Source: Rhizophagus irregularis
Lineage: Eukaryota; Glomeromycota; Glomeromycetes; Glomerales; Glomeraceae
DNA: 64,000 bases
Assembly (NCBI RefSeq): GCF_026210795.1
Contig: NC_089438.1
Span: forward strand, 2,377,501-2,441,500
Direction: 5' to 3'
Under the pieces are notes generated by a model. It did no database searches and was not told the DNA's origin. It saw only the letters and a list, made by a program, of their open reading frames with translations. Position 1 is the first letter of the stretch, and the number at the start of each line of letters is the position of its first letter. Below, in pieces: positions 8,599 through 46,801 of this stretch. The position numbers and the translations under genes are program-made.

Positions 8599-11020
8599 TT
8601 ATTCGTATTCTATTTTATTTTTCATTGTATTTTCATTTGTTTGTATTGTTTTAGACTTTAGGTCCAATAATACTGCGAACGTGGCTGTTACGAAGGCGAG
8701 ATGCAAAGAAGATGGATATTCTCCAGCGAATACTCTTTCAAGTATTCGCGTAAGCATGCCCAAACTTCCATTTTGATTAAAAAGTTTATTGTAACATTCA
8801 GCCACTGCAGGATGATTTTTCCATTCAATTATCCCTGCTGATGAAGTGTTAGTATTGATGGGTGGCAAAATTACTTCTCCAAAATAGCTGAATAAAGCAT
8901 CTCTAGCTTTAGTTGTCAAGCAACTTCGTAGGGATCTTTGTTTTGATAGAAGCTTTTATTAAAAAAAAAAGATTATTATTATTTATTAGTTTTCTAAACG
9001 TAAATATTAAATATAAAAAATTTACTTCTGGACAAATTTTGTTGTTAAAATATGAAATCCACTGCGTTTTAGTGAATTTGTTGTAAAAGTCTTGATGTCG
9101 AATTTTGAGAAATTCCTCAGTTGCTTCTCATAATTCTTCTTTGGTAGGGTATATACTTATATTAAATGTTGCTTTAGCAACATCTTTTATTATGGTCTAA
9201 AGAAATATAATTTGAGTTATAATATGTATATGACTTTAAAATTTAAAAAAGCTAGACTAACCTTTATGAAATTATTATCACCGGAATTATCAGATTCGAC
9301 CATCTCCTCAATATGCTTCATTCTATTGCATAAAAATTCCAAATGTTTATTGGTTTTTACGTTCTCTTCAATTAATTTAGTGTTGAACTGTTTATTTTGT
9401 TCTATCATATTATCAACCTTTTTGTTGAGTTTTATGAGTTGTTCTAATAAAATAAATTTTTGTTATAAAATATAAATTATCATAATTTTAAAAAACGATA
9501 ATATTCAAATATTTGCATACCATTAAAAACTTCATAGCTATTTTCGCTCATGCTACTCGTAGGACTCTGAATAATACTAATATAACTCACAAATGATCGG
9601 CATGCATTTACTATTAACTCTACGCAACTTTTTTTTCATAGTAACGCTACGCAAATCCAAATCTTAGTTCAAAAAAATTTTTGTTACTAATATAATTCAT
9701 TTCACATTTTTTCTATTAAAATATTAATAAAATCATGCAAAACTCACCATTTTATATTAAAATAGTGTGTTTCGCACTTTTTTCTATTAAAATATTAATA
9801 AAATGGTGCGAAAATCACCATTTATTTGTTAAAATGGTGTGTTTTGCACTTTTTCTATTAAAATATTAATAAAATCATGCGAAACTCACCATTTATTTGT
9901 TAAAATGGTGCGTTTCACACTTTTTCTATTAAAATATTAATAATATCATGCGAAACTCACCATTTATTTGTTAAAATAGTGCGTTTCGCACTTTTTTATA
10001 ATAAAATATTAATAAAATGGTGCGAAACTCACCATTTATTTGTCAAAATAGTGTGTTTCGCACTTTTTTATATTAAAATATTAATAAAATGGTGCGAAAC
10101 TCTCCATTTATTTGTCAAAATGGTGCGTTTCACACTTTTTTATATTAAAATATTAATAAAATAGTGCGAAACTCTCCATTTATTTGTCAAAATGATGCGT
10201 TTCACACTTTTTTATATTAAAATATTAATAAAATGGTGCGAAACTCTCCATTTTTTTGTTAAAATGGTGCGTTTCGCACTTTTTTATATTAAAATATTAA
10301 TAAAATGTGCAAAACTCACAATTTTTTGTTAAAATGGTGTGTTTCGCGCTTTTCTATTAAATTATTAATAAAATGGTGCGTTTCGCACTTTTTCTATTAA
10401 AATATTAATAAAATGGTACGTTTCGCACTTTTTTATATTAAAATATTAATTAAATGGTGCGAAACTCACCAATTATTTATTAAAATTGTGCGTTTCGCAC
10501 TTTTTTCTATTAAAATGTTAATAAAATGGTGCGAAATTCACCATTTTTTGTTAAAGTAGTGCATTTCGCACTTTTTTTTTATTAAAAAATATTAAAATAA
10601 TGCGAAATGCATTACTTTTTGTTACTATATACAATTAATTACCAAAATCCGTAATATTGCAAATTTCATAAATATATTACGGACCCATCCTTAATGGTTT
10701 TGCGCAACTTAATTTTTATTTACTACTATCAATATTATACAATTGATCAACATATAATGCAATATATTTATAAACTCTACGTAAACGTGATATGTGAGTT
10801 ATCCCAAAATTGACCGATCTACACAAACTCAATTTATGGGTTTAAAAAGTAATTTCATATAAACTCTACGCAAACCCGTTTGTGAGTTATATCAGTATTA
10901 TTCGGGGTCCTCTACTTGTGCTACTCATACTACTTTCAATACCTTGGCGTTTGTTTGATGTTACTTCACCCGCCGATAGAAGTTTTTGAATTTTATTTCG
11001 AAATTCTGATCTATCTCTGG
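8599..11020 (-). pseudogene. Broken multi-exon gene, lineage-type family of unknown function
   Basis: Exons on the reverse strand: part of one at about 11020-10913, continued at 9560-9521 after a transposon; 9433-9262; 9196-9026; 8952-8599. All junctions are GT-AG and keep frame. The product has a coiled, charged middle ('QNKQFNTKLIEENVKTNKHL') and a C-terminal part with 'KARDALFSYFGEVILPPI' and 'EWKNHPAVAECYNKLF'. I recall similar C-terminal segments in many Rhizophagus proteins of unknown role (memory, not a search). Two lesions: the 1.35-kb element at 9561-10912 inside an exon, and an in-frame TGA at 9130-9128 where CGA would fit. The 5' end was not found. Confidence 0.6.
9561..10912. mobile_element. 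Non-autonomous DNA element with 8-bp target duplication (hAT-like)
   Basis: Terminal inverted repeats: 'AGGACTCTGAATAATACT' at the left and, reverse complemented, 'AGGACCCCGAATAATACT' at the right, continuing into 'ATATAACTCACAAA'. Flanks are CTACTCGT (9553-9560) and CTACTTGT (10913-10920), an 8-bp duplication with one mismatch. Removing the element and one flank restores an open reading frame on the reverse strand. The interior has no ORF but a tandem array (9700-10620, roughly 70-bp units) in which GGTGCGAAACTCACC-like segments face TGGTGCGTTTCGCAC, so it can fold extensively. Eight-bp duplications are typical of hAT, P or Merlin elements. Confidence 0.8.
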
Positions 11021-22086: not shown

Positions 22087-23707
22087 TCGTCCCTATAATT
22101 GAATATTAAAAAAACATTTTAAAAAAATGTTAAAACATTTTTTAATAGTTTCGAAAAATTATTTTTCAAAACTAATCTATGGGATTCATTATAACCGATT
22201 CCCTATAATTGTATATTAAAAAAAAGAGTTTTTGAAAAATTTTTTCGAAACTCACCTATGGGATTCGTTGTAACTGATTCCCTATAATAGTGTATTAGAA
22301 AAAAAACGTTAAAAACATTTTTTAATAGTTTCAAAAAGAATTTTTCAAAACTTACCTATGGGATTCGTCCCTATAATTGAATATTTAAAAAAACATTTTA
22401 AAAAAACGTTAAACCATTTTTTAATAGTTTCAAAAAATTATTTTTCGAAACTTACCTATGGGATTCGTCCCTATAATTGAATATTAAAAAAAACGTTTTA
22501 AAAAAACATTAAAACATTTTTTAATAGTTTCAAAAAATTATTTTTCGAAACTAATCTATGGGATTCGTTATAACCGATTCCCTATAATTGTATATTAAAA
22601 AAAAGAGTTTCAAAAAATTTTTTTGAAACTCACCTATGGAATTCGTTGTAACCGATTCTCTATAATAGTGTATTAGAAAAAAAACGTTAAAAACGTTTTT
22701 TAATAGTTTTGAAAAAGAATTTTTCGAAACTCACCTATGGGATTCATTATAACTTATAACTGATTCCCTACAATTGAATAATAAAAAAAAATGAGTTTCG
22801 AAAAATTATTTTTCAAAACTCACCTATGGGATTCGTTATAACTGATTCCATATAATTGTATATTAAAAAAAAAGAGTTTCAAAAAATTTTTTTGAAACTC
22901 ACCTATAGGATTCGTTGTAACCGATTCCCTATAATAGTGTATTAGAAAAAAACGTTAAAAACGTTTTTTAATAGTTTTGAAAAAGAATTTTGAAACTAAC
23001 CTATGGGATTCGTTATAACCGATTCTCTACAATTGAATAATAAAAAAAAATGAGTTTCGAAAAATTATTTTTCAAAACTCACCTATGGGATTTATTATAA
23101 CCGATTCCCTATAATTGAATATTAAAAAAAAGTGAATTTCAAAAAATTATTTTTCGAAACTCACCTATGGGATTCGTTGTAACCGATTCCCTATAATTAA
23201 ATATTAAAAAAAAAGTGAGTTTCGAAAAATTATTTTTCAAAACTCACCTATAGGATTCGTTATAACCGATTCCCTACAATTGAAGATTAAAAAAAAAAGT
23301 GAGTTTCGAAAAATTATTTTTCGAAACTCACCTATGGGATTCGTTATAACTGATTTCCTACAATAAAATGTTAAAAAAAAATGTTAAAAATCGTTTATTA
23401 ATATCTTCAAATAAATGGTTTTTTCAGTTTAATAAAGTTTCGAAAGTAAAATGTTTGAAACTTTTGTGGGATATCGGTATCCAAATCGGAACCAATTTCC
23501 TAAAAAAAAAAATTTTTTTAAAAGTTTCAAAAGTAAATGTTTGAAAAAAAATGTTAAAGATAGTATGAAATAGTTTAATTCGTGATCTGTGTAACAATCG
23601 AACAAACACTCATATACGAAGCTGGGATAATAAACATATAAAAAAATAGGTCTAACCTGAATCCACTTTTTTTTATACTCAAATATTTTTTTTAAGACGC
23701 GTAAACT

Positions 23708-25430: not shown

Positions 25431-26660
25431 TACACATATTTCAAAGTATGGTTTGAGCATTTTGGTTAAAGTAAATCTTATTCTTTTAATTAAAAGTAGT
25501 TCAGTAAGTTTAAAACTGTTAAGATATTAATCTTCATAAAAGTACAGTTAATATTTTTGGAATTATTTACATTTTTTATATAATACAGTAGTATTAAGTT
25601 ACAAATTTTTTTACCTTCAGAACGTATTTTGAGATCTTTAGCCAAAGTAAATCGACTTCTTATATTAATTGAAAGTTGTTCATCATGTCAAAATCAACTT
25701 GGATATTAATTTTTACGAAGGTACAGTTAATACTTGATGAGTTATTTACAATTTTCACAACAGTACTCATTCATGACTTTTATTTTTTTCATTTTGTCAC
25801 TTCAGAGCGTATTTTGAGCACTTTATCCAAAGTAAACCAACTTCTTATATTAATTGAAAGTTGTTTAGCATGTCAAAATCAACTTGGATATTAATTTTTA
25901 CGAAGGTACAGTTAATACTTGATGAGTTATTCACGATTTTCACAACGGTACTCATTCACGAATTTTATTTTTTTCCGTTTTGTCACTTCAGAGCGTATTT
26001 TGAGCACTTTAGCCAAAGTAAATCGACTTCTTATATTAATTGAAAGTTGTTCATCATGTCAAAATCAACTTGGATATTAATTTTTACGAAGGTACAGTTA
26101 ATACTTGATGAGTTATTCACGATTTTCACAACGGTACTCATTCACGAATTTTATTTTTTCTATTTTGTCACTTCAGAGCGTATTTTAAGCACTTTAGCCA
26201 AAGTAAATCGACTTCTTATATTAATTGATAGTTGTTCAGCATGTCAAAATCTACTTGGATATTAATTTTTACGAAGGTACAGTTAATACTTGATGAGTTA
26301 TTCACGATTTTCACAATGGTACTCATTCACGAATTTTATTTTTTCCATTTTGTCAATTCAGAGCGTATTTTGAGCACTTTAGCCAAAGCAAATCGACTTT
26401 ATTTATTAATTGAATATTGTTCAGCATGTCAAAATCTACTTGAATATTAATTTTCACGAAGGTACAGTTAATACTTGATGAGTTATTCACGATTTTCACA
26501 ACGGTACTCATTCACAAATTTTATTTTTTTCCGTTTTGTCACTTCAGAGTGTATTTTGAGCACTTTAGCCAAAGCAAATCGACTTCATTTATTAATTGAA
26601 AATTGTTCAGCAGCTTAGAATCTACTTGAATATTTATTTTAATGAAGGTACAGTTAATAT
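25431..26660. repeat. 185/186-bp satellite, about six copies
   Basis: Near-identical units, with 'atgtcaaaatcaacttggat' at 25684, 25869, 26055 and so on, and 'cacttcagagcgtattttga' about 130 bp later. The first copy (25431-25560) and the last are diverged. Each unit holds an ATG and a 60-72 codon open frame, but the frames end inside the next unit and the peptide shows no sign of selection. A diverged inverted copy is at 29519-29640. Confidence 0.85.
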
Positions 26661-27229
26661 TTGTGGAATTATTAATTTTTATAATTGTGCATATTACATT
26701 GAATTACAAGTAAATTTATATTCTTAAATGTATTTTGTTTAAAATTTAATTATTTAAGATTAGTTTTTTATTTAATATTGCTTAATAAAATATTTTTTAA
26801 AATTTAATTCAATATTACAATATAATTTTTTATAAAAATATATATTTCATAATGTACAGTATATACAATTTTTTTGTATAGTGAAAAAACTGAAAAATGT
26901 AGTTAAGAATTGGTAATACGGCTGTAAAAAGTCACAAATCAGACAAATATAGCTAAAATCAGCAATCCGATTTGAATATGCAATTTAAAAATTGGCATAT
27001 CCAATTTTTGTCAATTCGTACTAAAAAATCAGCTACAAAAAGTTACAAATCGGACAAATATAGCCAAAAATTGGCTATCTGATTTTTTTGCCAGTTTTTA
27101 TTTATTTGACGTAAGTTTTTCTACACTTTAAAGCATCAAACAATACTAGTATCCACTAATATATACTACCCAAAAACTCACTGATGTAAAATTACAATTA
27201 TTAAAAATTCGCAAAAATTTTTGTTAATA

Positions 27230-38372: not shown

Positions 38373-41300
38373 TTATTTTAATTCCAATGAACGGTCAATC
38401 TTCCCAACCAAATTCTGAATATTTTGTGGTTTATTAACTATTTTATTTTCATTTTCATTACTTCCAATAATAACGCCAATATCATCACTATTATAATAAC
38501 ACGTTTTGTTCAAATTCTTTAATTTGCAATTAAAGTTTTCTAGATCATTAAAAGTTACTTTAAGATTGTGAGCCATTATAGGAAACTTCTGCAATAAAGT
38601 TTTCGTATTTGGAAGGAATCTGCGCCAACCACAAGTGATCTCACAACGTAATACTTGAGTAATAGTAATACAAAATCCATGCATCCCTTCATAAATAAAC
38701 CACTGACTGGAATGAACTCCAGGAACGAAATTTTCCCTATGACTACCATCTTTATCAAGATTATTGTCAATATATTGATATAACCAACGCTCTCCTTTAG
38801 TATTAGGACCTTTATAAAATAATTTTCACTCATTTGATGAATATTGAATATTATTACTTTTTTTATATCCACCTGTAAAATCTACACCTGGCGTTTTTGA
38901 TATTCCAACCTTTCCTTCATAGCTCTTTTCATTACCCTTTGAAATTTCAATATTTCGATTTATTTGTCTTGGTTGTGAAGTACCTTTCAATCCAAACAAA
39001 TTATTTCCATTATTAGGTAATGGAGAAATATGAACTTCGACAGAATGAAGTAAGTAACCGAGGCCTTTCCCATTAAATAATGAACATTGATTACTAAGCA
39101 TATCTCCAACTCCACAAACATTTACATCAACGTCATATTCTAAAATCTTGATATCCTCCTCAAAAGGAATAATTTCTGCCCAAAGATTAGCAGAAATGTT
39201 AAAATCTTGCAAAAATTCAGAATTAATAACTTCGGCATTTACTTTTGATGAAATGTAGATTCTATCTACTTTTTTTTTACCACTATTATTATCATCACCA
39301 TCACCATCATCATCATCATCACCACCATAATTATTATTACCACTATCATCACTATCATTATTACTAATAATATTACCACTATTACCGGTATTGTTATTGC
39401 TATTATTACCATTATTATTATTGTTGTTGCCATTTTGACGATTATTGCTACCACTACCACCACCATTACTATTGCCATTATTACTATCATTACCATCTTC
39501 ATCCTTTAAGTTTTCTTCATTATTAGCAAAATAATTACTGGTGTTTAAATTCTGATTATTATTTTCATTTATATTTAAAGGTACTACTATTTTGTATATA
39601 ACCTCAAACTGATCTTCAAATATAGTTTCAAGACATTCCAAAACTGTAATATCAAGTGATTTAGCAACCCAACAGGTAATGCATGGTCTAGTAGAATTTT
39701 TTTGAAAATCAGCTCCTATGGCATATACAGGTTGTAATTCTAGTATATGATCAATATCATCTTTTCGGCTGATAAGTAATTTTTGCAATTTTTCTGCTTC
39801 AGAATATGAAGTATCAGAAATTCCAGGAAAAATAGTTGCTTTTACTGTAATAAACTCTGAATTAGCTTCACAATTTGCATTAATAATAGGTTCATCAAAT
39901 TGAATATTATTAAAAAGATTATTATTATTATCATTAATATTACTATCTATATTATATGTATTTATTAATTCATTGTTTTCAATAAAAAACTTATTATTTG
40001 AACCAGCTAATTTTTCATACCATTCCTTTGCTTTAATCTCATTTTTTTCAATTTCCAATCCATATCTATAAAAATTACTTAAATTATATTGTGCAATTTT
40101 ATTACCATTTTCTGCTGATTTTTGATACCAATAAAATGATTTTTCTAAATCTATTTGTATATTTATACCATTTTTATAAAGAAATCCCAAATAATTTTGT
40201 GCATCACTATTATCTTGTTTAGCTGATTTTTCATACCATTTAAATGCTTCAATTTCATCAGTTTTTTCAATTCCCCATCCATTTTGATAATACAAACCTA
40301 AATTATATTGTGCAAATTTATTATTATTTTCTGCCGATTTTTGATACCAATAAAATGATTTTTTTAAATCATTTTGTATTTCATAAAAATATCCTAATTT
40401 ATATTGCATTTTATCATTTTTTTGTTCAATTTCTTGTTCAACCAATTTTTCATCAATTTTCCATCCATTTAAATAATATGAAATTAGATTATATTGTGCC
40501 AATTTATTTCCATTTTCTGCTGATTTTTGATACCAATAAAAAGCTTTTTCCAAATCTTTTTGTATTCCTATTCCATTTTCATAATAATATCCTAAATAAT
40601 TTTGTGCATCATTATGTTCCTGCTTAGCTGATTTTTCAAAATATTTAAATGCATTAATTTCATTTTTAATTTTTTGACAAAATAAACCAAAATTATATTG
40701 TGATAAACCTTATGAAAAATTAAATTGATTAAATTTAAATTACAAAACAATATAAAAATATTATCAGTTATAATAAAATTAAATAACTTACTATCTGTAA
40801 TAATATATTAAAATAAAATTTATAAAATTTATAATTAAATTAATTAAATTTAAATTATAAAATAATATATAAAAAATATTTACCATCTGTAATATATTAA
40901 AATAAAGATTTTGCAATTAATTAAATTTAAATTATAAAATAAACATAAAAATATCATAATAAAATTAATTAATTAAATAACTTACTATCCATAATAATAT
41001 CTGATATATTAAAATAAAATTTACAATTAAGTTAATTAAATTTAAATTATAAAATTATAAAATAATATATAATAAATTATAAAATTAAATAACTTACCAT
41101 CTATAAATTATAATATATTAAAAATAAAGATTTGCAATTAATTAAATTAAATTATAAATAATATCAGATATGTAATAAAATTAAATAACTTACCAACTGT
41201 AATATATTAAAAATAAAGATTTACAATTAATTAAATTTAAATTATAAAATAATATATAAAAAATAACTTACTATTATCTATATATTAAAAATAAAGATTT

Positions 41301-44300
41301 GCAATTAATTAAATTTAATTTATAAAATAATATATAATAAAATTATAAAATTAAATAACTTACAATCTGTAATATATAAAAAATAAAGATTTGCAATTAA
41401 TTAAATTTAATTTATAAAATAATATATAATAAAATTATAAAATTAAATAACTTACCAACTGTAATATATTATATTAAAAATAAAGATTTGCAATTAATTA
41501 AATTTAAATTATAAATAATATATAATAAAATAATAAAATTAAATAACTTACAATCTGTAATATATTTAAAATAAAAAATTTGCAATTAATTAAATTTAAA
41601 TTATAAAATAATATATAATATTAAATAACTTACTATCTGTAATATTAAAAATAAAGATTTACAATTAATTAAATTTAAATTATAAAATAATATATAAAAA
41701 AATTATAAAATTAAATAACTTACAATCTGTAATATTAAAAATAAAAATTTGCAATTAATTAAATTTAAATTACAAATAATATATAATAAAATTATAAAAT
41801 TAAATAACTTACTAACTGTAATATATTAAAATAAAAATTAACAATTTTTAAGTTAAATAGGAGAAAAGATTTTATATATTATAAAATAAGTTTTTATAAT
41901 AAATACTGTTTTTTATAAAAATAATTGTAAAAAATACTTACATACTAAATAATTAAATTTTTTAAATAAAGATTTATAGTTAATTAAAAAATAAAAAATA
42001 ATATAAAAAAATATAATAAAATTAAATACTTACATTCTAATAATTAAAATTTTTAAATAAAGATTTATAGTTAATTAAAAATTAAAATAATATAAAAAAT
42101 ATAATAAAATTAAATAACTTACCAACTGTAATAATTAAAAATAAAAAATTTTATAATTAAAATTAAATTTTAAATATTTATGTATTAATAATATTAATAA
42201 TTAAAATTTTTAGATTAAATATAATTAAATTATAATAAAATTAAATACTTACGTGCTAATAATTAAATTTTTAAATAAAAATTTATTATAAAATAAGTTT
42301 TTTGTAATAAAATACTGCTTTCTATAAAAAGTAAATTATAAAAAATACTTACATGCTAATAATTAAATTTTAAAATTAAAAATATAAAATTAAATATTTA
42401 TATATTGATAATTAAAATTTTAGATTAAATATTATAATAAAATTAAATACTTACGTGCTAATAATTAAAATTTTTAAATAAAATTTATTATAAAATAAGT
42501 TTTCTATAATAAATTAATATTGTTTTTTAAAAATAAATTATAAAAAATACTTACATACTAATAATTAAAATTTTAAATAAAAATTTTATAGTTAATTAAA
42601 AAATAATATAAAAAATATAATAAAATTAAATAACTTACCAACTGTAATATATTAAAAATAAAAAATTTTATATATTATAAAGTAAGCTTTTTATAATAAA
42701 ATACTGCTTTTTATAAAAATAAATTGTAAAAAATACTTACATGCTAATAATTAAATTTAAATAAAATATTTATATATTAATAATTAATAATTAAAATTTT
42801 TAGATAATAAAATTAAATACTTACGTTCTAATAATTAAAATTTTTAAATAAAAATTTATAGTTAATTAAAAAATAATATAAAAAATATAATAGAATTAAA
42901 TAACTTACCAACTGTAATATATTAAAAATAAAAATTTGCAATTAATTAAATTTAAATTATAAAATAATATATAATAAAATTATAAAATTAAATAATTTAC
43001 CATCTGTAATATATTAAAAATTTTATAAAATAAGTTTTTTATAATAAAATACTGCTTTTCTTTTTATAAAAATAAATTGTAAAAAATACTTACATTCTAA
43101 TAATTAAATTAAATACTTATTGTTAATAATTAAAATATTTGGAAATTAAATTATAATAAAATTAAATACTCACGTTCTAATAATTAAAGTTTTTAAATAA
43201 AAATTTATAGTTAATTAAAAAATAATATAAAAAATATAACAAAATTAAATAACTTACCAACTGTAATATATTAAAAATTAAAAATTTTCAAAGTTAAATA
43301 GAAAATAAGTTTTCTATAATAAAATACTACTTTCTATAAAATAAATTGTAAAGATACTTACATGCTAATAATTAAATTTTAAATAAAATATTATAAATTA
43401 AATATTTGTATATTAATAATATTAATAATTAAAATTTTTATATTAAATATTATCGCACAGCCCTATAGGATCATGCTGATTTTATTTGTCCGATATTTTC
43501 ATTATCGTACAATATTGATATCAATAGTTTATTTGTGTACAATATTGAATATCGATAGTTTATTTGCGTACAATATCGAACATTAATAGTTTATTCAAGT
43601 ATGATCTGCATTAGCCATACGATAACATAAATATTGTACGGTGATATTTATATTGGTTAATGTCACTTTGTAATATAAATACAACACTGTACAATATCCA
43701 TTAATTATAATTAAATTATAATAAAATTAAATAGTACTTACGTGCTAATAATTAAATTTTATCATAAAATAAGTTTTTTATAATAAAATATGCTTACTAT
43801 AAAAATAAATTATAAAAAATACTTACATGCTAATAATTAAATTTTAAAATTAAAAATATAAAATTAAATATTTATATTAATAATTAAAATTTTTAGATAA
43901 AATATTATAATTAGTAAATTATAATAAAATTAAATACTCACGTTCTAATAATTAAAATTTTTAAATAAAAATTTATAGTTAATTAAAAAATAATATAAAA
44001 AACATAATAAAATTAAATAACTTACCAACTGTAATATATCAAAATAAAGATTTGCAATTAATTAAATTTAAATTATAAAATAATATATAATAAAATTATA
44101 AAATTAAATAACTTACTATCTGTAATATATTAAACATTTTTAAATTAAATAGAAAAAAATTTTATATATCATTTATAAAAATAAATTGTAAAAAATACTT
44201 ACATTCTAATAATTAAATTAAATATTTATTGTTAATAATTAAAATATTTAGATGAGGTTTTTACTTTAAATCACCAAGGGTAATCATCATCATTGGCTAA

Positions 44301-46801
44301 AATTATTAATTTTTACCAGCACTATATTTTTTTAATGCTGGTTAATTGTTATAATTTCAGTTACCAGTGATCATTACCCCCTGGTGATAGTTAGAAAAAT
44401 TCTTTAGATAAAATATTAAATTAAATTGTAAATACTTACGTTCTAATAATTAAAATTTTTAAATAAAAATTTATAGTTAATTAAAAAATAATAATAATAT
44501 AAAAAATATAACAAAATTAAATAATTTACCATCTGTAATATATGAAAAATAAAAAATTTTATATATTATAAATAACTAACTTTTTATAATAAAATATTAT
44601 TGCTTTTAAAAATAAATTATAAAAATACTTACATTCTAATAATTAAAATTTTTAAATAAAAATTTATAGTTAATTAAAAAATAATATAAAAAACATAATA
44701 AAATTAAATAACTTACCAACTGTAATATATCAAAATAAAGATTTGCAATTAATTAAATTTAAATTATAAAATAATATATAATAAAATTATAAAATTAAAT
44801 AACTTACTATCTGTAATATATTAAACATTTTTAAATTAAATAGAAAAAAATTTTATATATCATTTATAAAAATAAATTGTAAAAAATACTTACATTCTAA
44901 TAATTAAATTAAATATTTATTGTTAATAATTAAAATATTTAGATGAGGTTTTTACTTTAAATCACCAAGGGTAATCATCATTGGCTAAAATTATTAATTT
45001 TTACCAGCACTATATTTTTTTAATGCTGGTTAATTGTTATAATTTCAGTTACCAGTGATCATTACCCCCTGGTGATAGTTAGAAAAATTCTTTAGATAAA
45101 ATATTAAATTAAATTGTAAATACTTACGTTCTAATAATTAAAATTTTTAAATAAAAATTTATAGTTAATTAAAAAATAATAATAATATAAAAAATATAAC
45201 AAAATTAAATAATTTACCATCTGTAATATATGAAAAATAAAAAATTTTATATATTATAAATAACTAACTTTTTATAATAAAATATTATTGCTTTTAAAAA
45301 TAAATTATAAAAATACTTACATTCTAATAATTAAAATTTTTAAATAAAAATTTATAGTTAATTAAAAAATAATAATAATATAAAAAATATAACAAAATTA
45401 AATAATTTACCATCTGTAATATATGAAAAATAAAAAATTTTATATATTATAAATAACTAACTTTTTATAATAAAATATTATTGCTTTTAAAAATAAATTA
45501 TAAAAATACTTACATTCTAATAATTAAAATTTTTAAATAAAAATTTATAGTTAATTAAAAATAATATAAAAAATATAATAAAATTGAATAACTTACCATC
45601 TGTCTTACTATCTGTAATATATTAAAAATGAAATTTTGTTTAATAAAACTTGGTTAAATTAATATAATATAATAAAATTAAATAATTTACCATCTGTAAT
45701 ATATTAAAAATAAAGATTTGCAATTAATTAAATTTAAATTATAAAATAATATATAATAAAATTATAAAATTAAATAACTTATTTATCTTACTATCTATAA
45801 TATTAAAAATAAAGATTTGCAATTAATTAAATTTAAATTATAAAATAATATATAATAAAATTATAAAATTAAATAACTTACTTATCTTATTATCTATAAT
45901 ATATTAAAAATAAAAATTTGCAATTAATTAAATTTAAAATTATAAAATAATAAAAATAATATATAATAAAATTATAAAATTAAATACTTACATGTATTAA
46001 TTCTTTTTTTCTTCTGTTCTAATTTATTCATTGAATTTATTGAATAAAATTTAAAACTTCCTGGTTTTGTTTTTCTTTTCCTTTTCTTTATTCTATTATT
46101 TTTTTTCTCTATATTTTCTCCTGTATTAATATTCATTTCTTGACTATTCTTTTCACTTATATATGCTAATAATTAAATTTAAATAAAATATTATAATTAA
46201 ATTGATCAAACTTAAATTATAAAGAAAATAATATAAAATTATAATAAAATTAAATACTTACATGCTAATATAATAAATTAAAACAAATAATTTAAATTAT
46301 AGATCACATGAAAATAAATATACTAATTAAAATTAAATAACTTACCCTCTATAATAAATAAAATAGATTTAGTAAAATGAATTTGAATTTAAATTATAAA
46401 GCCATATGAAAAATACAATTAAAATTATTAAAATTAAATAACTTACGCTCTAAATTAAATAAATTTAGTAAATTATAATATTATCATTCATTAGGAAAAA
46501 AAAACAAATAATGTTTAAAAAAATACAAGCAGAATTGGATAACTTACCTTCTATGATATAATCATTTATTAAGAAAAAAGGTAGTTAAAATATAATTGAC
46601 TTACTAGGTAATACTTAAATTTTGTAGTTTAATAATTTATTGTATTAAATAACTTACCTATTTTATCTTCGCTGGTACCTAAATATTTTAAAATCGGTCA
46701 AGGTTAATTATAAATTAACAAAAATAACGAATCAAACAGTAAATTCCGTACCTTCATCTCTTATTACTCTTTTACCTTTACTATTAGCTTTTTCCGACAT
46801 A
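38373..46801 (-). CDS. Sel1-repeat protein assembled from about 58 exons, 49 of them single codons
   Basis: Start ATG at 46801. Exons: 46801-46753, 46678-46658, 46613-46605, four 3-nt exons (46550-48, 46449-47, 46348-46, 46264-62), 46165-45992 (Lys-rich), the micro-exon array to 40792, and the long exon from 40708. Total coding length to the TGA at 38828-38826 is 2331 nt (776 aa). The long exon has about seven Sel1 repeats (e.g. 'ALEKAFYWYQKSAENG'-type units ending 'AQYNLGLYYQNGWGIEK'), which usually scaffold protein complexes, then a region of unknown fold, an Asn/Gly/Asp-rich linker and a second globular part. After the TGA the same frame stays open to 38373 with conserved-looking sequence ('KGERWLYQYIDNN', 'VHSSQWFIYEGMHGF'), so TGA probably replaced Trp TGG. 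Splicing is inferred, not observed. COX10 lies upstream in the same direction. Confidence 0.7.
43453..43706. other. Foreign insert in one intron of the array
   Basis: A stretch unlike the array, with three 'gtacaatat(t/c)gaatatcgatag' + 'tttatttg' units (about 36 bp apart). No clear terminal repeats. It lengthens the intron between exons 43744 and 43364. Confidence 0.5.
44271..44387. mobile_element. Small MITE-like hairpin in an intron (copy 1)
   Basis: Ends TCACCAAGGGTAATCAT and, reverse complemented, TCACCAGGGGGTAATGAT; an internal 'ccagcac...gtgctgg'-like hairpin. It lies in the intron between exons 44442 and 44205 and was copied together with its surroundings (see 44962). Confidence 0.6.
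44962..45075. mobile_element. Small MITE-like hairpin in an intron (copy 2)
   Basis: Same sequence as 44271-44387 except for a 3-bp shorter 'catcatcatt' run. It marks the roughly 690-bp segmental duplication of the array. Confidence 0.6.

Follow-up and report, generated by a model that had tools for sequence, protein, structure and literature searches.

The 64,000-nucleotide stretch of Rhizophagus irregularis DNA analysed here (C10:2377501-2441500, hereafter the window) contains, on its minus strand, a gene in which 49 exons of exactly 3 nt lie upstream of an exon encoding Sel1 repeats. Arrays of one-codon exons are a genome-wide feature (146.7 Mb in 32 contigs were searched), of which the window gene is one case. 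We consider it very probable that these arrays are coding sequence, with the 3-nt exons being spliced in order, all of them kept, and read in phase 1, that is, with one base carried over from upstream. Several points can be demonstrated from the sequence: the architecture of the arrays, the spacing of exactly 3 nt, the phase, the consecutive joining of the exons, the absence of a provision for skipping and the occurrence at many loci. The chemistry is presumably that of ordinary splicing. Exons are usually held to need tens of nucleotides for their recognition, and lone micro-exons are regarded as special, regulated cases. No account of tandem one-codon exon arrays was found in the literature searched, chiefly open-access, on micro-exons, small, 3-nt or single-codon exons, Rhizophagus and mycorrhiza, and as far as we can tell this is a gene architecture of a new kind.

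Evidence for joining and translation comes from codons that would be split between exons. In phase 1, each codon takes its first base from the end of one exon and its other two from the start of the following one, approximately 90 bp away, and a T-ending exon followed by one starting with AA, AG or GA is then a forbidden pair. We analysed nine arrays with 360 called 3-nt exons and 331 pairs whose intron does not exceed 135 nt; pairs over larger gaps were left out, since a unit might be missing there. A stop-making successor was present in 0/92 cases after T-ending exons vs 68/239 after exons with a last base other than T (p=1e-11). Some of the 331 pairs are mutual copies, for which the fair figure is obtained by counting each exon-pair type once, and this gave 0/46 vs 43/141. 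The result was similar when the window array was excluded (0/77 vs 56/211). The donor list contained two weak types added after inspection of the arrays; the counts were 0/90 vs 66/235 without these two types, and 0/82 vs 53/197 when only GTAAGT and GTAAAT donors were used.

The control comparisons behaved differently. When T-ending exons were paired with the exon two, three or four positions further on, would-be stops were obtained in 20/86, 20/75 and 17/71 cases, respectively, and reversing the exon order gave 26/91. Permutation within acceptor classes predicted 7.5 stops where 0 were seen, and none of 5000 shuffles was that low. Avoidance is absent in phase 2, which has 66 stops vs 54 expected. 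The same pattern was found genome-wide for one acceptor/donor class, in which T-ending exons were followed by RAN once and by YNN 146 times, and those with A, C or G as their last base by RAN 81 times and by YNN 308 times; the single T-to-RAN case compares with 38 expected (p=1e-11), and the deficit remained after subtraction of the matches belonging to the nine arrays as far as listed (9, 4 and 6; p=1e-10). Because split stops are avoided between neighbours only, the exons appear to be joined consecutively and translated, and apart from translation of the exons after consecutive splicing, we are aware of nothing that would couple bases at a distance of 90 bp like this. Moreover, because would-be stops at lags two to four occur at the base rate, there seems to be no provision for skipping units. 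By this test, the array genes are not built to survive the loss of single units through skipping.

The second line of evidence is the spacing between acceptor and donor. Three splice-site patterns in which the AG-to-GT distance was left free gave 2174 matches in the genome, and this distance was exactly 3 nt in 226 of the 233 matches listed. The pattern TTACAG followed by 1-24 free bases and GTAAGTTATTT had 33 matches, 32 with 3 nt and one with 17, and its reversed-pattern control had 3. For ATAG, 1-12 bases and GTAAGTTATTTA, 1770 matches were obtained (reversed control, 19), and among the 100 listed, 99 had 3 nt and one had 6. The pattern TTTTAG, 1-12 bases and GTAAGTTATAA gave 371 matches (reversed control, 5), with 3 nt in 95, 1 nt in four and 11 nt in one of the 100 listed. 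In addition, a parser trained on other gene families and without any exon-length preference called 274 of the 297 internal exons in the nine arrays as 3 nt long, and missed many weaker units in C3 and C24a as well as weaker sites in C10, the contig of the window. The reversed-pattern controls, together with this length-neutral parser, rule out composition bias as the source of the 3-nt spacing.

The 32 TTACAG matches with 3 nt are located in nine loci: the window, C3, C2, C4 (twice), C15, C17 and C24 (twice). The array at C3:1574.9-1577.7k has 31 units and lies upstream of a gene whose PKD_channel match falls short of the cut-off. The seven further arrays (C2, C4a, C4b, C15, C17, C24a and C24b) have between 25 and 58 units each, and a kinase-like exon is present downstream of the array in six of these; C4b, the 3' end of which is outside the fetched region, shows the first-exon order common to the kinase-type loci. 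The array genes thus carry Sel1 repeats (seen in the relative P0001), a kinase domain (assigned by Pfam in the homologue P0122) or the sub-cut-off PKD_channel match. Genome-wide, paired matches formed at least 73 clusters spaced by more than 30 kb (100/146 and 81/81 of the matches being listed), and adding the clusters read off the three pattern listings gave 100, some of them resting on single matches. An assembly artefact is ruled out, as three different kinds of gene contain arrays and a similar run is present in the R. diaphanus gene model P0158. Six regions containing paralogues of the C-terminal domain of the window gene (L048-L053) had 0, 0, 0, 1, 0 and 0 AG-3-GT matches; being nearly devoid of them, they indicate that the window array is not a property of the C-terminal-domain family.

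The ends of the arrays agree with phase 1. The start exons of eight arrays, picked by eye, are 49, 13, 22, 19, 13, 19, 19 and 22 nt long, all 1 mod 3; for the ninth array (C24b) no start exon was identified. At the other end, the last unit before the kinase exon is AG/A/GTAAGT, i.e., a 1-nt exon, in all six kinase-type loci with the 3' end in hand. The start of the kinase exon (AG/A TTT GG) requires two carried bases. Because the array phase provides one base and the 1-nt exon the second, the 1-nt exon would restore the kinase frame; phases 0 and 2 fail to close with it. Translation of the nine arrays in phase 1 gives mainly the residues D, E, N, W, F, R and Y. None of the called 3-nt exons has C in the middle position (0/360).

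The layout of the window gene is given in Table 1. Upstream of the Sel1 exon there are 57 exons, of which 49 are 3 nt long, the sequence-only reading of this DNA having put the single-codon exons on the minus strand at about 49, and the others are 49, 21, 9, 174, 12, 15, 15 and 6 nt. The 183 nt that it had predicted between the 174-nt and Sel1 exons were matched exactly on recounting the predicted exons (45 of 3 nt plus 12, 15, 6 and 15 nt). Its choice of phase 1 for this chain likewise holds, with stop counts of 0 in phase 1, 1 in phase 0 (in the 12-nt exon) and 23 in phase 2, and is also backed by the avoidance of split stops between consecutive exons only. The Sel1 exon needs an upstream splice: the codon immediately before the exon start at 40708 is TAA in the genomic frame, and the frame of the exon is therefore accessible only via splicing. 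Other details needed adjustment. The total of 2331 nt stands if the 9-nt exon is counted, and is 2322 nt, also divisible by 3, without it. Among the exceptional exons of 6, 9, 12, 15, 15 and 21 nt, all multiples of 3 in length, the one of 9 nt is doubtful. The period of 85-105 bp was too narrow a range, the introns being mostly 73-127 nt with outliers of 231, 234 and 377 nt that hold inserts. The donors are in general GTAAGT, GTAAAT or GTGAGT, but the 3-nt unit at 45792-45794 has the weaker GTAAGA.

Table 1. Features of the array gene in the window (positions are those of the window, position 1 being its first letter).
Feature	Position	Strand	Remarks
Start exon, 49 nt (MSEKANSKGKRVIRDEG), one base left over (phase 1)	46752..46800	-	N-terminus of P0007 is MSENTSKRVIRDEG
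21-nt exon, TSEDKI	46658..46678	-	P0007 has TSEDEI
Doubtful 9-nt exon	46605..46613	-	Flanking introns only 44 and 54 nt; P0007 reads TSEDEI-EE directly (TSEDEIEE)
Four 3-nt exons, residues E, E, Q, A	46262..46550	-	P0007 has EE and A, without Q
The same 3-nt exons: AAG, AGC, AGG, CAT	46548-46550, 46447-46449, 46346-46348, 46262-46264	-	
Lysine-rich exon, 174 nt	45992..46165	-	Its peptide matches nowhere else in the genome
Array of 49 micro-exons, 183 nt, phase-1 peptide YNKINNDSKTDEYEYEQYIEYEQYIEPSPFEQYVEPFVSPSLELFNYNFDYNIDDIIMDND	40792..45893	-	
Array members longer than 3 nt: 12, 15, 6 and 15 nt	45882-45893, 45597-45611, 41272-41277, 40986-41000	-	
231-nt array intron with imperfect palindrome insert	44897..45127	-	Read by eye; near copy in 234-nt intron 44206-44439
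377-nt array intron	43365..43741	-	Insert includes a 31-bp tandem repeat (43506-43595)
Sel1 repeats and Rhizophagus family domain, last exon of the model	38826..40708	-	Ends at in-frame TGA 38826-38828

The first exons are supported by a protein of a relative. The predicted window protein begins MSEKANSKGKRVIRDEG-TSEDKI-E-E-Q-A-SYISEKNSQEM, in which the residues E, E, Q and A are encoded by one 3-nt exon each, and a protein search with residues 1-150 returned one match, the predicted R. diaphanus protein P0007, which shares the N-terminus but is without the long array. P0007 starts MSENTSKRVIRDEGTSEDEIEEANISKKDSQEI, and in this predicted sequence the residues EE and A encoded by the first 3-nt exons follow in the same order. 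No hydrophobic stretch is evident by eye in the N-terminus MSEKANSKGKRVIRDEG. The phase-1 peptide of the array, which includes the region YEYEQYIEYEQYIEPSPFEQYVEP, is acidic and aromatic, and lies downstream of the lysine-rich segment. Sel1 (PF08238) was detected in the close relative P0001, which was scanned in place of the window protein, with 161.2 bits vs a gathering cut-off of 30.7, in five stretches. The two palindromic inserts of Table 1 look MITE-like (miniature inverted-repeat transposable element) and were, by eye, apparently copied in a block duplication of approximately 690 bp. Long tandem repeats are also present elsewhere in the window, at 9700-10607, 22087-23381 and 25615-26663, with units of 72, ~80-380 and 185 bp, respectively.

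Several observations weigh against coding arrays read in phase 1. As the choice of the start exons was made by eye, their agreement in phase partly reflects that choice. One of the 147 genome-wide T-pairs would give a stop, and C24a has two phase-1 stops unless two 6-nt exons called by the parser are used; both of these stops fall across large gaps excluded from the pair counts. Phase 0 is nearly stop-free as well, with 1/360 stop exons vs 12.8 expected if the three columns are independent, although shuffling of the columns is not decisive for a small exon repertoire. Runs resembling a phase-0 reading were recognised by eye in 6, perhaps 7, of the 68 public gene models found. Decayed units exist, such as one in C24b with a donor reading AT. 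C4a (L055) has two exons of 2 nt (GA) and one of 0 nt, in which AG is directly followed by GTAAGT; single 2-nt exons could be sequence errors, and the odd units of C4a are decayed units, sequence errors or a true recursive site. A unit of C2 with the weak donor GTAATA must be spliced in, because skipping it would create a stop. Finally, the C-terminal domain of the window gene contains an in-frame TGA, for which reason the window copy may be shortened or decaying. Past this TGA the frame remains open until a TAA is reached at 38373-38375, and in relatives from other isolates and species the reading continues. Within 38373-38828 (minus strand), the public models P0006 and P0012 are without the stretch near the TGA; P0006, an R. 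irregularis protein, has 99% identity across the 58% aligned.

That an array is simply one long intron with tandem repeats, its AG/NNN/GT motifs being duplication relics absent from the mRNA, is hardly credible to us. The sequence is indeed AT-rich and tandemly repeated, and several published models of array proteins begin downstream of the arrays, but non-coding repeats would have no reason to avoid split stops between neighbours only (0/92 vs 20/86 at lag two) or to contain one genome-wide split stop where 38 are expected, and the exact 3 nt in 226/233 listed matches would go unexplained. The logic of micro-exon genes offers another possibility, namely that the symmetric exons are optional cassettes whose frequent skipping generates many protein lengths. 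Nearly all units are symmetric and skipping them would be frame-neutral; common skipping, however, predicts that stops are avoided between exon i and exons i+2 and i+3, where they occur at the base rate (20/86 and 20/75), which makes optional cassettes very unlikely. Rare skipping with decay of the product would be compatible with these counts.

A third alternative concerns the frame of the kinase-type arrays, which might be read in phase 0, one codon per exon, with a 5-nt exon AGTAA replacing the 1-nt exon. It draws on the near lack of stop exons (1/360) and on the public models P0125, P0133, P0134, P0136, P0154, P0158 and perhaps P0147 from R. irregularis and R. diaphanus, found with a kinase-type array as the query, which end their phase-0-like run with LSK before the kinase start. 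Still, we regard it as highly improbable: it is in phase 1 that split stops are avoided, phase 1 is also what the start exons leave at the six kinase-type loci where an ATG was identified by eye, and the donor of the 1-nt exon is GTAAGT in 6/6 loci, whereas that of the 5-nt exon varies. We think that automatic annotation met the array exons and read them in the wrong frame, which would stem from the use of gene finders without 1-nt exons. A last alternative touches only the origin of the arrays: mobile, introner-like introns could have invaded a continuous coding sequence at 3-nt steps, with no tandem growth. Near-identical introns around unrelated codons would fit such an invasion, as would the likeness beyond shuffles of intron interiors from channel- and kinase-type genes (see below), but duplicated blocks that keep the exon order can be seen, the Sel1-gene introns are only weakly above shuffles, and no mechanism that inserts at fixed steps of 3 nt is known to us. 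An origin by invasion is, in our judgement, rather unlikely.

Coding arrays spliced unit by unit, the explanation we prefer, would operate as follows. The pre-mRNA would span approximately 50 tandem, short, AT-rich introns, with one 3-nt exon after each copy, and the spliceosome would take these introns out successively, retaining every 3-nt exon. The introns would have to be removed stepwise, because an exon of 3 nt can hardly bind acceptor and donor factors at once, and recognition across the intron would be natural because the introns are short; array introns have GT...AG ends with a strong donor and acceptor. We infer that it is the ordinary spliceosome that acts in this stepwise manner. 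Removal in the 5' to 3' direction would put each new donor 3 nt past a junction, and the human exon junction complex is described as repressing donors at such near-junction places (PMC6224609). Removal from 3' to 5' would sidestep this repression. Each unit would add a single residue to a low-complexity tail or linker, which in the window gene would connect the lysine-rich part to the Sel1 repeats and in the kinase-like family would precede the kinase domain, with the final 1-nt exon setting the frame. If the encoded tail has a function, our guess is that it serves as a linker or interaction segment.

The arrays would expand and contract via tandem duplication of units, each a 3-nt exon with its intron, and of blocks of units, so that only whole codons are added. 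The proposal of the sequence-only reading that a duplication adds one intron and one residue fits the tandem structure and the block duplications seen in C17, where an exon run is repeated in the same order, and we retain it as the probable mode of growth. We compared each unit with the non-overlapping unit of its own array that resembled it most, at a flank identity of at least 95% (146 pairs). The exon differed in 64/146 pairs and intron triplets of the same size in 125/739 (p=1e-11), corresponding to a 3.6-fold higher change per base in the exon. When all 84/84 flanking bases were identical, the codon was the same in 40 pairs and different in 6 (e.g., CTC vs GGT in C17), four of which are not independent, having one C15 partner unit in common. 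Identical intron flanks around unrelated codons were seen in L057, L058, L032/L033 and other arrays. This excess of codon change could result from selection for diversity, homogenised introns or an origin by intron insertion. Gap openings between near-identical units affected 2/641 exon positions vs 457/22026 intron positions; the low change at AG and GT is partly built in, as an intact AG and GT were required for calling a unit.

Intron interiors were also compared between gene types. Channel-type (L033) against kinase-type introns (the seven further arrays) gave 24.7 vs 17.6 for shuffles. For the Sel1-gene introns the excess was weak, 25.9 vs 22.2 against the kinase type and 21.9 vs 18.8 against the channel type, and two ordinary introns, used as a baseline, gave 18.3 to 24.3 vs 16.4 to 23.1. 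The channel- and kinase-type values hint at a common origin or at a shared intron grammar in unrelated genes.

Several known systems resemble these arrays in part. Schistosome micro-exon genes (MEGs) have short symmetric tandem exons and evolve fast (PMC8293314, a review), which is reminiscent of the window gene, where 49/57 exons are 3 nt and all but the first are multiples of 3. However, the exons of MEGs are up to 36 bp long and can be skipped, and signal peptides are present (PMC8293314). The alternative exon removal of MEGs finds no counterpart here, as judged indirectly from stops at lags two to four occurring at the base rate, and the Rhizophagus exons are one codon long, with up to 58 per array. 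The exons of aphid bicycle genes encode several residues each. Bicycle genes have many small internal exons, nearly all starting from codon position 2, and megacycle contains more than 100 micro-exons (PMC9168663). The abundance of small internal exons and their common phase (codon position 2) are shared by the Rhizophagus arrays, but here each exon is one codon and near-identical introns form the repeat unit. In Drosophila homothorax, a 3-nt micro-exon can be spliced in; this is a single, alternatively spliced exon and not an array (PMC7392893). Recursive splicing, including recursive-splicing exons (RS-exons), likewise involves a donor at or near the new junction after intron removal, but in RS-exons the donor coincides with the junction and is in competition with another donor of the exon (PMC6224609), whereas in Rhizophagus it would lie 3 nt past the junction and not 0, except for one 0-nt unit in C4a. 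The SP7-like effectors of R. irregularis are also a Rhizophagus repeat family with a conserved intron position, but they have one conserved intron before the first repeat, and micro-exon arrays are not mentioned in the accessible part of that source (PMC11333574).

A published long-read mapping of R. irregularis, made for an expression profile, permitted introns of at most 3000 nt (PMC10234402). Because of this limit, it would be unsuited to micro-exon arrays of 5 kb, over which 3-nt exons have to be placed. If the arrays are coding, a large number of the gene models for this symbiont would have a start placed too far downstream or a wrong frame. The approximately two thousand 3-nt units found with three patterns alone would also make up a natural test bed for splice sites 3 nt apart, for the order of intron removal and for donors that remain unblocked next to a junction. 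More tentatively, and with slightly less than even confidence, we propose that this is a diversifying architecture, in which an intron backbone carries a variable codon, providing many kinase-like and other proteins with divergent linkers or recognition tails at the price of approximately 50 micro-splices per message without skipping. If so, a gene would gain or lose single residues of its tail without risk to the frame.

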